Source: Candidatus Bathyarchaeota archaeon (GTDB lineage: Archaea > Thermoproteota > Bathyarchaeia > Bathyarchaeales > Bathycorpusculaceae). Taken from it: a DNA stretch of 64,000 nt. The stretch spans positions 62,001 to 126,000 of the forward strand of contig JAOZHW010000022.1 in NCBI GenBank assembly GCA_026014685.1. The letters are read 5' to 3'. Under the pieces are notes generated by a model that worked only from the letters and a program-made list of their open reading frames with translations, had not been told where the DNA came from and made no database searches. The position numbers and the translations under genes were made by a program. Every line of letters starts with the position of its first letter. The first letter of the stretch is position 1. Shown here in pieces: positions 4,095 to 56,408 of this stretch.

Positions 4095-4208
4095 AGGTTT
4101 ATTTCGTTGCATGACGTTTTGATGTGAAATTGCAGGCGGACAACCTTGTCCGTTGGGATGTGGCCGAAAGGCTGAACCGCAAACAATAGATACAAAAGTG
4201 ATTGAAAC
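4095..4208 (+). promoter_or_regulatory. rpl15e promoter and folded 5' leader
   Basis: A TATA-like GGTTTATTTC at about 4096-4105 would start transcription near 4125-4130, giving a leader of about 80 nt. The leader contains two hairpins: CGGACA-ACCT-TGTCCG (4137-4152) and GGCC-GAAA-GGCT with a GNRA tetraloop (4162-4173). The rest of 3900-4095 shows nothing recognisable. Long structured leaders are not the rule elsewhere in this window. Confidence 0.4.
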
Positions 4209-17815: not shown

Positions 17816-17857
17816 TTTATATAAGGGAGGGGAGGTCAGCTTTGAGACGTCGTGTGA
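17816..17857 (+). repeat. TATA/G-rich dispersed element, copy A
   Basis: TATATAA (17818-17824) is followed immediately by GGGAGGGGAGG and, 20 bases on, by GAGACGTCGTGTG ending at 17856. Copies B (42938) and C (53289, minus) align without gaps over 39 bases. A run of six T follows (17858-17863). This copy points into the 3' end of the opposing DUF2283 gene, so it is not a promoter for an identifiable protein gene. The rest of 17582-17815 shows no gene. Confidence 0.7.
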
Positions 17858-42937: not shown

Positions 42938-42979
42938 TTTATATAAGGGAGGGGAGGTAGCGGCAGAGAGGTCGCGTGG
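42938..42979 (+). repeat. TATA/G-rich dispersed element, copy B
   Basis: TATATAA (42940-42946), then GGGAGGGGAGGTAG, then GGCAGAGAGGTCGCGTGG ending at 42979. Identical to copy A over the first 19 bases and gapless with A, C and D thereafter. It lies 144 nt upstream of the dnaJ start; dnaJ has its own TATA box nearer its ATG (ACTATAAATC, about 43058-43067). Confidence 0.7.
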
Positions 42980-53136: not shown

Positions 53137-53288
53137 CTTTTATTTCTCCTGACTTGTATGTGAAGTTACTATTCAACTATTTATCTTTGATTTAAATAGT
53201 TTACACAAAACTTGCGGCAAACAATTTTTCGGACAGACAAATCTATTCACTCAGAAGCATATACGGTTCCGTCCGAAGGCGCTGGAGG

Positions 53289-53329
53289 CACGCGACGTCT
53301 CAGCGTCTACCTCCCCTCCCTTATATAAG
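53289..53329 (-). repeat. TATA/G-rich dispersed element, copy C
   Basis: On the minus strand TATATAAGGGAGGGGAGGT begins at 53327, followed by GCTGAGACGTCGCGTG ending at 53289. Gapless with copies A and B. It points toward smAP3, 150 nt away, and lies 96 nt upstream of the integrase start on the other strand. A GC-rich tail (CCTCCAGCGCCTTCGG) follows. Confidence 0.7.
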
Positions 53330-53424
53330 GAAAAGTTGTTTTGAGCGTTATCTCTTTGCGGAGCGGGTTGGCGTTTTAAACGTAAGGCTTTTAGGGGAAA
53401 ACACAAACCAAAGGATGGAACAAT

Positions 53425-54669
53425 ATGAGTAAAGAATCAAAACCCTATACTCAAGACCCCTATTTTAAGCGATGGATGTCAGGTCTTAGTGAGCGCACTA
53501 AGCTGAACTATACTGAGAGAATCCAGAACTGGATAACCTTTACAGGCATGGATTTAACCATGCAGGTAAGTAAACGCATGAGGGATTTAACCTCTCAAGA
53601 CCTCTCAGAGAGACAGTTTTTTGAAGACAAATTCAGAGCCTACAAAGAGTACTTGGAGAAGCGAGGTGACCTAAAGCCTCTTAGTGTGAGGACTGAGTTA
53701 ACGGCTGTGGCTTCTTTCTTTTCAAGAATCGGCCTACCCTTAGCACTAAAGCGCGGTGACTGGGAAAGTACACAGCAACAAGCAGTAATTCAACGTTTAA
53801 AGATAACACGCGATGACGTTAAAGCGATGTATGCACACGCTAACCTAAGAGACAGAGCTTTGTTGCTTGTTTTAGCGCAAAGCGGTTTTTCTGAGGTTGA
53901 TGTGAGCAATCTTCGGATTGAGGAGCTAAAGGGGCTTTATGAGAATGCTGAGACGGAGCATTATTTTATCGAGAAGCCACGTGAGAAAACAAACGAGGTT
54001 CAGGCTACTTGTTTTAGTTATGAGGCTGTGCATGACCTAAAAGCTATGCTCCAAGAGCGAGGCAACCCAACAGAGGGGTTTTTGTTTGTTAGCCAAACCA
54101 AAGGCAAAGGAGAACAACTAGAGGTTAGAAGTATTAATGAGGCTATGAAGTCGTTAGCGCAAAAAACGTTTAGCGAAGACAAAGCCAAAGACTTCAAAAC
54201 AAAAGCGCTTAGGAGCTTTTACAATTCTGCGCTTTTGAGGGCTGGTGTGTCGCCGCAGGAGCTTAAGGATTTGATGTTTGGGCATGGCAGAAAAGGCGCC
54301 AGAGGACACTACGACTACGACGAACAAACCATTAAAGAAGCCTATGGTAGGGTGTTTGAGCATGTCTCAATCAACGGTCTGCAAGTCAGAAACGATTTGA
54401 AGAAAGTTATGGATGGACTAAACAGTTTGAGCAGTATGAATGAGGTTTTTAGGCGTCAGCTTGAAGCCAAAGACCGTGAACTCCAAGAACTTAGAGGTGA
54501 GCTTAAGGCTTTGAGCAGCATGATTAGGCAGGTAGCATGTTCTGAGCAGGTAAAGATAGCAGACGAAGTTCTTGCGCAAGTAGCTGATAGATTACTTGCA
54601 GACTCAGAGTTTATGGCTAAATTCAAAGAAAACGCTCAAAAAATAAACCCCAACACCCTCAAAAGATAG
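53425..54669 (+). CDS. Tyrosine recombinase/integrase
   Basis: A 414-residue protein: N-terminal SAM-like DNA-binding domain (GLSERTKLNYTERIQNWITFTG), catalytic domain and a C-terminal coiled coil (NEVFRRQLEAKDRELQELRGELKAL). The second Arg box KALRSFYNSALLRAG (about residue 259), a His in LMFGHG and the nucleophile Tyr in the HYDYDEQTIKEAY region (about 295-305) are visible. At the first Arg position (SGFSEVDV, about 152) there is Ser instead of Arg. Probably from an integrated element; activity uncertain. Confidence 0.88.
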   Translation: MSKESKPYTQDPYFKRWMSGLSERTKLNYTERIQNWITFTGMDLTMQVSKRMRDLTSQDLSERQFFEDKFRAYKEYLEKRGDLKPLSVRTELTAVASFFSRIGLPLALKRGDWESTQQQAVIQRLKITRDDVKAMYAHANLRDRALLLVLAQSGFSEVDVSNLRIEELKGLYENAETEHYFIEKPREKTNEVQATCFSYEAVHDLKAMLQERGNPTEGFLFVSQTKGKGEQLEVRSINEAMKSLAQKTFSEDKAKDFKTKALRSFYNSALLRAGVSPQELKDLMFGHGRKGARGHYDYDEQTIKEAYGRVFEHVSINGLQVRNDLKKVMDGLNSLSSMNEVFRRQLEAKDRELQELRGELKALSSMIRQVACSEQVKIADEVLAQVADRLLADSEFMAKFKENAQKINPNTLKR

Positions 54670-54685
54670 GCACCAACCTATCTTT
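54662..54685 (+). terminator. Integrase terminator hairpin
   Basis: AAAGATAGG (54662-54670) and CCTATCTTT (54677-54685) form a perfect 9-bp stem with a CACCAA loop; the stem includes the integrase stop codon. Confidence 0.6.
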
Positions 54686-54845
54686 CCTATCCTATCTCAT
54701 CGCCAGAAATTCTTAGCTTTTTCAGCTTAGTTCTCAGTTGCTGTTCTTTCATTTTTGTCTTGAGCAGTCAGGCTTAGAAGTTATTTGAATCTATTTTATT
54801 TTTTCTTAATCTCAAGTTTCGTATCTAACTACGTTAACAAGATAA

Positions 54846-55060
54846 GGCGCGCCCTTCGGGCGCGCACGACACCGCCCAAACCCTACCGCCAAACGACCTG
54901 GCGTCTTCGGCGTGCAACCCCTCCGCAAGCCCTATCGGGTGAGCCGTTTTGCCCCTCAAGGGGGCGCCTGCCCCGCTTTCGTGTCCTCGTCCCCGCTCCA
55001 TGAGCAGGGACCGCTTCAGGCTAAAACGGCTCACAGAGGGGGCACGCCTAAAATACACGA
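54846..55060. other. GC-rich, strongly folded non-coding island
   Basis: About 215 bp of high GC inside AT-rich surroundings. Structures visible: GCGCGCCCTTCGGGCGCGC (54848-54866), an 8-bp stem with a UUC/UUCG loop; a 12-bp pair GTGAGCCGTTTT (54939-54950) with AAAACGGCTCAC (55023-55034); and, inside that, GTCCC-c-GCTC-cat-GAGC-a-GGGAC (54989-55011). Short open frames exist on both strands but none looks coding. It could be a structured RNA, a recombination site or replication-related element of the integrase-bearing region. It does not show the conserved cores of RNase P RNA or SRP RNA. Confidence 0.45.
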
Positions 55061-55235
55061 TAAAGAACGGTGGGGGGTGTGTGATTTGGGTTGGTTTGAA
55101 TTATAGAAAAACCTGAGCAACCACAAGGGTTGCCGCCGACTGTAAAAATTATTTTTCTTTTATTGACAATTCACAGCCATCTCAGAGGAATAATTATAGA
55201 ATACTGAAACACCTTTTGGTCGTCTAAAGCTTTTT

Positions 55236-55769
55236 TTAAGAAATCATAGGCGGTACCAAAGTATCGTTGTTTTCACCTAAATCACCACCGTACATGAACC
55301 TGCTCTGTCCGCCCCAGTTAGATTCAATCAGTCGCAAAAAAAGCTGGTTCGATTGCGACTCAATCAAGATGTCAAATCTCGGAGGACTACCTATCGAAAA
55401 GTATAGGTCAGTGGACCTGCTCTCTTTACTATGCAGAGTGTATGATAATTTGACTGTATGGGCATCCACAAACTCCGTTGGGTAAAAGTCATCCCGTGAA
55501 AAGGTTGCGTTTCCCTCTAATTTAACAACGATGCTAAAGGTTGCATCAAATAGACCAGTATTCTGACATTGAACCGTAGTGAATGTTCTGTTAACAAGTT
55601 GGCTATTTTTGGGGTAATCAATTACTGTGTACCAATGACCATCGATTTTTTGGTATATACGGGGCTGAAGAAAATAATTAACCGATGACCCAAAAAAATA
55701 AAAAACAACTATTAACGCAAATACAAAAACGCCAATCAAAGCTAATGTCAAGCGAATTTTTCTTTTCAT
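55236..55769 (-). CDS. Membrane-anchored surface protein, unknown
   Basis: A 177-residue protein from ATG 55769 (MKRKIRLTLALIGVFVFAL): basic start, one TM helix (about residues 7-28), then a beta-rich extracytoplasmic domain with N-x-S/T sites (VNRTFTTVQCQNTGLFDATFSIVVKLEGNATFS). The middle looks like an Ig-like or CARDB-type fold. No catalytic motif. Isolated in an AT-rich accessory region. Confidence 0.65.
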   Translation of the reverse strand: MKRKIRLTLALIGVFVFALIVVFYFFGSSVNYFLQPRIYQKIDGHWYTVIDYPKNSQLVNRTFTTVQCQNTGLFDATFSIVVKLEGNATFSRDDFYPTEFVDAHTVKLSYTLHSKESRSTDLYFSIGSPPRFDILIESQSNQLFLRLIESNWGGQSRFMYGGDLGENNDTLVPPMIS

Positions 55770-55779
55770 AGCCAACACA

Positions 55780-56408
55780 ATCTTATTTGCTTGTTGCTAT
55801 TATTAATTTTTGTAATATTTTAGGTCAAATGATAAGCTTTTTAGCACTCACATCAGAGTTCTGATGATTAGAGAATTCTTGCAAAAGCTTATAACTAGCC
55901 AGTAATAATAGAAATCAGCGACAAACGTCCCTAAAATTTACTTTTCCCTAAGGCAGGTCTTTCCTACAAACTAAGTGCTGATAAAATAGTGATTACGATC
56001 TCTAAAGACGCATTAATAGTAAATTGTCAATCAAGTTAGAAGAGGACCAAGCTTTTATAAATAAGTTTAATTATTGTTTAGCTATCCCTAAAGAAATGCA
56101 TTTAGAACGTAAAAACCTCTTAACCCTCAGGAATGGCTGTTTAGAACTGCTTTTCCATATAAAGAACAAACGCCAGCATTCTTGACGATTGTGAACTGGT
56201 TTTGTAAACTGAAAACAAAATGCCGCCTTTAACCAATTTTTATGGATATTGGAATTCGCTTCAAGTGAGGACAACTACCTTTTTTGATTGAAAAAGCCGC
56301 CCCGTCAGTAACCGAAAGCTGTGCAGCCAAATCAGCCCTAAAACCTATAGTTGTGCTTCTAAAAGCATTTATGTAGGGTGATGTTTTTTAGAGTACTGAA
56401 GATGAAGT
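55780..56408. other. AT-rich intergenic stretch without recognisable gene
   Basis: About 630 bases, low in GC. Short open frames occur on both strands but none has convincing composition, a start site or family resemblance. The last 60 bases hold the probable thpR promoter. I see no repeats or RNA gene. Confidence 0.4.

Follow-up and report, generated by a model that had tools for sequence, protein, structure and literature searches.

The window, by which we mean the whole stretch of 64,000 nucleotides analysed (contig C22:62001-126000 of an archaeal genome of 2.32 Mb), holds a segment of 2.83 kb with the characters of a mobile element (53329-56156), in which a left end, an integrase gene, a GC-rich folded island, one cargo gene and a right end follow one another. 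Since the element spans these positions, the island is internal to it. The features of the locus are listed below.

53261..53332, plus strand: copy of a dispersed intergenic repeat, core CACGCGACGTCTC-7 nt-ACCTCCCCTCCCTTATATAA, based on 40 scored DNA matches; the putative integration target
53319..53400, plus strand: left terminal inverted repeat, with the TTATATAA core at 53321-53328 and the first element bases, GGAAAAG, at 53329-53335
53425..54669, plus strand: tyrosine recombinase (integrase) of 414 aa (Pfam PF00589, E 4e-11)
54670..54893, plus strand: non-coding segment common to element copies 1 and 2, which reaches about 54 nt into the island
54846-55083 (about), no strand assigned: GC-rich foldback island, defined by composition, stems and folding statistics
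Within the island, nested arms at 54909/55042, 54918/55036 and 54939-54950/55023-55034, an inner stem at 54989-55011 and a head hairpin at 54846-54865
55236..55778, minus strand: cargo ORF of 180 aa with an N-terminal hydrophobic segment and no Pfam family; this gene differs in each element
56083..56166, minus strand: right terminal inverted repeat, with CTTTTCC at 56150-56156 followed by ATATAA at 56157-56162 and the flanking AGAACAAA

The integrase shows the xxLR, GHxR and Tyr signature of PF00589, with the box II residues L262 R263, G286 H287, R289 and Y296 invariant among 15 aligned family members. At box I the catalytic Arg is absent from the alignment, on which this statement is based, and SGFS stands in its place in 15 of 15 members; L024 has a different non-Arg motif there and L014, a relative from the same genome, reads GLRISD. 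As an observation on the recombinase family in its own right (53425-54669 and the relatives L013-L028), Ser replaces the box I Arg (SGFSExD) and an Arg, invariant in the 15 aligned members, lies two residues ahead of the active-site Lys of REKT. The archaeal XerA model NF040815 scores the integrase at 49.7 bits, far below its cut-off of 220, and no IntI model match is listed at E 0.01; the family is only distantly related to archaeal XerA. At E 1e-20 the integrase is found in 11 of 150 genomes, the relative G018 not being among them, while a search of genome contigs for relatives of the integrase gave none, and viral contigs searched with the integrase, the repeat pattern and the family alignment likewise held no relative. 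A close second copy lies on contig C1 (97% amino acid identity; 91.6% DNA identity over 1613 bases), and the pair has a dN of 0.024, a dS of 0.45 and a dN/dS of about 0.05, both genes being old and under purifying selection.

In 382 kb the sequence of the right end has three occurrences, one behind each element copy, and its reverse complement resembles the left end. When the ends of a relative from G013, which is another species of the genus, are included in the alignment, the terminal repeats are imperfect and about 80 nt long; left and right ends agree at 43/82, 48/82, 23/45 and 56/93 positions (51-60% within an element). An end model built from the eight ends was searched in 61 genomes and matched exactly six places in the whole genome, which form three inverted pairs, and two places forming one pair in G013. 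That the model recovers its own eight ends is expected, and the informative part is that the genome holds no further pair. Some match at E 0.05 exists in 31 of the 61 genomes, mostly weak and single, with unpaired end-like matches in G024, G005, G022, G009, G035 and G015; none of these adjoins an integrase of this kind except near G022:C21, where the orientation does not fit a pair. The good single matches (G022:C21:2974-3059, locus L216; G024:C106:2375-2455; G005:C140:1743-1826) are perhaps remnants. Read across the junctions, the joined ends are predicted to be CTTTTCC-ATATAA-GGAAAAG (arm, 6 nt, arm) and the empty site CCCTCCCTTATATAAAGAACAAA; copy 3 deviates from this pattern at both ends.

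Each of the three elements of this genome is placed within the TTATATAA box of a copy of the dispersed repeat, and AGAACAAA or a variant of it stands outside its right end, as it does outside solitary repeats. Allowing up to three mismatches to one pattern, the repeat occurs at 59 places in the genome and 18 in G018, and in none of 59 other relatives searched; the same pattern is present in the Bathyarchaeota MAG FK_Sedi_B_Bin.165, which corresponds to G018. With 59 boxes of 8 nt in a genome of 2.3 Mb, the probability that chance would put three of three elements into them is, roughly, negligible. The 40-nt core of the repeat at copy 1 is shared without change by six or more other repeats, among them one in G018, and differs by three bases from the cores at copies 2 and 3, so that the repeat was there before the element. 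G018 has the repeat with neither an end-model match nor an integrase match at E 1e-20, from which it follows that the repeat exists independently of the element. A clean empty site for copy 1 was not found in G018, where a repeat follows the same Lsm gene with different DNA between the two and beyond them, and where the genes to the right of copy 1 are located on another contig. The repeat was also considered as a promoter, given a TATA-like box at its end, and this was rejected as the neighbouring genes at 38 places have no orientation bias. Its conserved 40-nt core ends in TTATWTAA and is preceded by two kinds of upstream module; further copies in the window lie at 42939-42978 and 17817-17856, both on the minus strand.

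The island was originally described in the first-pass annotation as a GC-rich, folded segment some 170 bp past the integrase terminator, and composition, stem positions and folding against shuffled sequence bear this out, the integrase stop at 54669 being about the right distance from the island start at 54846, where GGCGCGCCCTTCGGGCGCGC begins. Its extent had been given as 54846-55060; the start holds, and the structure continues to about 55083. The surrounding DNA was called AT-rich, which is true locally (GC 0.31-0.43 immediately flanking and 0.68-0.70 per 100 nt within the island) but not of a 382-kb genome sample made up of contig C1 and most of C22, where mean GC is 0.46, the island is the top 200-nt window at 0.68 and the next separate window has 0.62. 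The stems stand where that annotation placed them: the 12-nt inverted repeat 54939-54950/55023-55034 is flawless, and in the stem 54989-55011 one bulge separates the perfect parts. Outside them GGCGTGC at 54909 pairs with GCACGCC at 55042 and CCCCTC at 54918 with GAGGGG at 55036, and an inverted-repeat search of the island (seed 9, minimum 12) returned one pair, the remaining stems being shorter or hairpins.

Ranked by fold strength among the 3801 windows of 200 nt in that sample, the island comes second, after the one next to copy 2 of the integrase, which lies on C1 and is its only other close copy. RNA folding gives z of -3.9 on the plus and -3.8 on the minus strand (none of 200 shuffles reached so low a value on either), DNA parameters give -3.9 and -4.5, and in a separate run of 100 shuffles one was as low on the plus strand and none on the minus. 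Folding energies of the two islands are nearly equal on both strands (-93.3/-91.8 and -89.7/-84.4 kcal/mol) and both contain few G-U pairs; of the next-ranked windows, save one that overlaps the island of copy 2, most have a good fold on a single strand, C1:173001 and C1:61901 being strongly one-sided. Over their full length, all three islands fold better on the minus strand, with 10, 10 and 9 G-U pairs versus 3, 7 and 7.

The three end pairs of the genome belong to the element in the window (copy 1), a copy whose foldback and cargo are different (copy 2) and an integrase-less deletion derivative (copy 3), and a fourth element, with an integrase 67% identical and another cargo gene, is that of G013. 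Identity between copies 1 and 2 extends about 54 nt into the island and ends at 54893, beyond which the islands are unrelated in sequence, although both are long foldbacks. The foldback of copy 2 is different in sequence, about 175 nt long, with perfect outer arms of 13 nt (L010 4165/4328), inner arms of 9 and 13 nt and folding z from -5.9 to -8.1. In copy 3 (C1:2398-2601) an internal deletion has brought the left end up against the right half of the island as it is in copy 1; the part 54965-55082 recurs there, and homology between copies 1 and 3 ends near the right edge of the island, at about 55083. This derivative (L009 2398-4237) retains both ends and a secreted cargo protein of 410 aa, and could possibly be moved in trans. 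In the G013 element the GC-rich folded stretch lies between cargo and right end, not beside the integrase, and its folding is significant on one strand only (z -4.05 vs -1.26). Copies 1 and 2 are a mosaic of identical and diverged tracts; at an overall identity of 91.6% their longest unbroken match is 141 nt, a length reached in 1 of 5000 shuffles, so the elements probably recombine. They are also identical over 54744-54863, and the idea that this 120-nt stretch before the island is special was rejected because the 141-nt run lies in the gene.

Compared over 1.34 Mb of loci, the four elements carry four unrelated cargo genes. In copy 1 the product has 180 aa and in copy 2 it has 179 aa; that of copy 3 has 410 aa and a prealbumin-like domain, and that of G013 has 278 aa with weak, sub-threshold metallopeptidase matches. 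All four start with a hydrophobic segment. On either side of the cargo gene of G013 stands a 23-nt direct repeat whose two copies differ by one mismatch, one of them at the integrase stop codon; this repeat (L169 889-911 and 2081-2103) resembles a cargo insertion scar.

The island itself is absent from all 99 relatives searched and from the phages and plasmids searched. The first-pass annotation had asked whether it accompanies the integrase, and each of the two close integrase copies in the genome is indeed followed, at an equal distance, by a GC-rich foldback. Of its suggestions for the nature of the island, a structured RNA and a single-strand origin are candidates, and others fared less well. 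The island does not behave as a repeat family or MITE present in many copies without the integrase, as besides itself the genome holds two partial copies, both in related elements. It is not the attachment site either, for the ends of the element, which are inverted repeats, lie at a distance from it, 1.5 kb on the upstream side and 1.0 kb on the downstream side. The idea that the right end lies within the island was dropped once the right inverted repeat had been found downstream, and TAAAGAA at the right edge of the island was dropped as a core site because the homology of copies 1 and 3 extends past it. As a known RNA the island finds no match in Rfam at gathering scores, with only chance-level matches up to E 5, and there is no sign of contamination, as another contig carries sibling copies and a second species a relative. 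Elsewhere in the window, at 4137-4183 on the plus strand, Rfam places an eL15-Euryarchaeota ribosomal protein leader (RF03144, 44.8 bits) in what is apparently a Bathyarchaeota genome. The island is thus not an element end, a dispersed repeat or a known RNA; it is an internal non-coding foldback module that marks the junction of integrase and cargo.

That the island lies within a mobile element of this kind, with one tyrosine recombinase, cargo and inverted ends, is very probable, and the element itself is, as far as sequence can tell, a minimal tyrosine-recombinase transposon with exchangeable cargo. The recombinase would bind the inverted ends and join them as CTTTTCC-ATATAA-GGAAAAG to form a circle, which would reinsert into the TTATATAA box of a dispersed repeat. 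Less certain than these steps is the part of the island. It may act at the DNA level, as a palindrome prone to recombination that separates the variable half of the element from the conserved half with the integrase; there element copies might swap their cargo, and the foldback with it, through breakage or through template switching, and the integrase and ends would stay intact. We tentatively favour this exchange of cargo at a DNA foldback, at somewhat below an even chance, because the likeness between elements stops at the island, the fold is kept while its sequence is free to vary, and the copies are mosaic. The near-equal folding of the two strands and the small number of G-U pairs also count in its favour. 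The sample of foldbacks amounts to two and one half, and no exchange event has been seen directly. Against it stand the G013 element, where the folded part stands between cargo and right end, folds significantly on one strand only and a direct repeat flanks the cargo instead, the better minus-strand fold of all three islands, for which a pure DNA palindrome has no need, and the lack of such a foldback in the other integrase relatives with downstream sequence. End repeats only 51-60% identical within an element, and a copy 1 with no clean empty site in G018, also speak against the explanation as a whole.

The minus-strand preference speaks for the main rival, a gene for a structured non-coding RNA within the cargo, most likely on the minus strand and directed towards the integrase. 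GC-rich folded islands in AT-richer DNA are a usual mark of RNA genes, copy 2 reaches its z of -8.1 on that strand, and the G-U counts are uneven; yet the island has no Rfam family, copies 1 and 2 share just 54 nt, which leaves no comparison for covariation, and the strands fold almost equally, unlike those of C1:173001 and C1:61901, so that we consider an RNA gene rather unlikely. The free sequence of the foldbacks, the half structure kept in copy 3 and the distant integrase relatives that lack one would suit functionless passengers, either old insertions or palindromes that repair created at cargo breakpoints, but two of two full copies have a foldback at the same place, these are the two strongest folds of 382 kb, and they are nearly intact in copies that are old (dS 0.45), making this reading unlikely. 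Least probable is that the integrase uses the island as a folded single-strand site for capturing cargo by recombination, in the manner of integron attC/attI: a position directly after the integrase, a fold that stays as its sequence varies and downstream content that differs between elements would fit, whereas no RYYYAAC and GTTRRRY pair bounds the foldback of copy 1, the one pair of copy 2 does not bound its foldback, the integrase has no IntI match and scores 49.7 bits with the XerA model, far below the cut-off, cassette arrays are lacking and the G013 element has no island beside its integrase. Bolder still, and very doubtful, is a minimal archaeal cargo shuttle, integron-like in its working but independent in origin; in this one-enzyme transposon a foldback defined by its shape and not by its sequence would be the docking site for swapping secreted-protein genes, and the tyrosine recombinase would be of a family without the canonical box I Arg.

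The element would explain in a tractable way how small surface-protein genes move among Bathyarchaeota. It gives a role to a dispersed repeat that is otherwise unexplained, and raises the question whether a fold without conserved sequence is a point of cargo exchange or an RNA.

In the open-licence literature we found no archaeal cargo transposon with a single tyrosine recombinase and long inverted ends that homes to an intergenic repeat. Starship and Crypton are tyrosine-recombinase transposons in which the recombinase gene likewise comes ahead of the cargo, and they too have repeat ends and a site preference; their hosts are fungal or other eukaryotic, and Starships are far larger than this element. 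Archaeal and bacterial integrons, as PMC9668308 describes them, also have an integrase with a folded region and exchangeable genes behind it, and differ from an element with mobile ends, no IntI match, no attC boxes around its fold and one cargo gene in place of an array; the element is not an integron. A dif site consists of two inverted arms of 11 nt around a 6-nt spacer according to PMC8371274, a geometry to which the predicted joined ends correspond; the distant relation of the integrase to archaeal XerA is a further likeness. Unlike Xer/dif, the element is mobile and multi-copy and has long ends, and Ser replaces the XerA-type arginine of box I. The strand-biased circularizing elements, or SEs (PMC9345347 and PMC10214605), have four core genes (intA, tfp, intB and srap), ends of 13-19 nt and C/C' repeats with a 6-nt spacer, and are reported only from Gammaproteobacteria. 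Here the intA-tfp-intB-srap set is replaced by a single recombinase ORF in an archaeon, the ends are about 80 nt and a foldback stands between integrase and cargo; a tyrosine recombinase, imperfect inverted end repeats, a 6-nt spacer in the predicted joined form, cargo and preferred targets are what the element has in common with the SEs.
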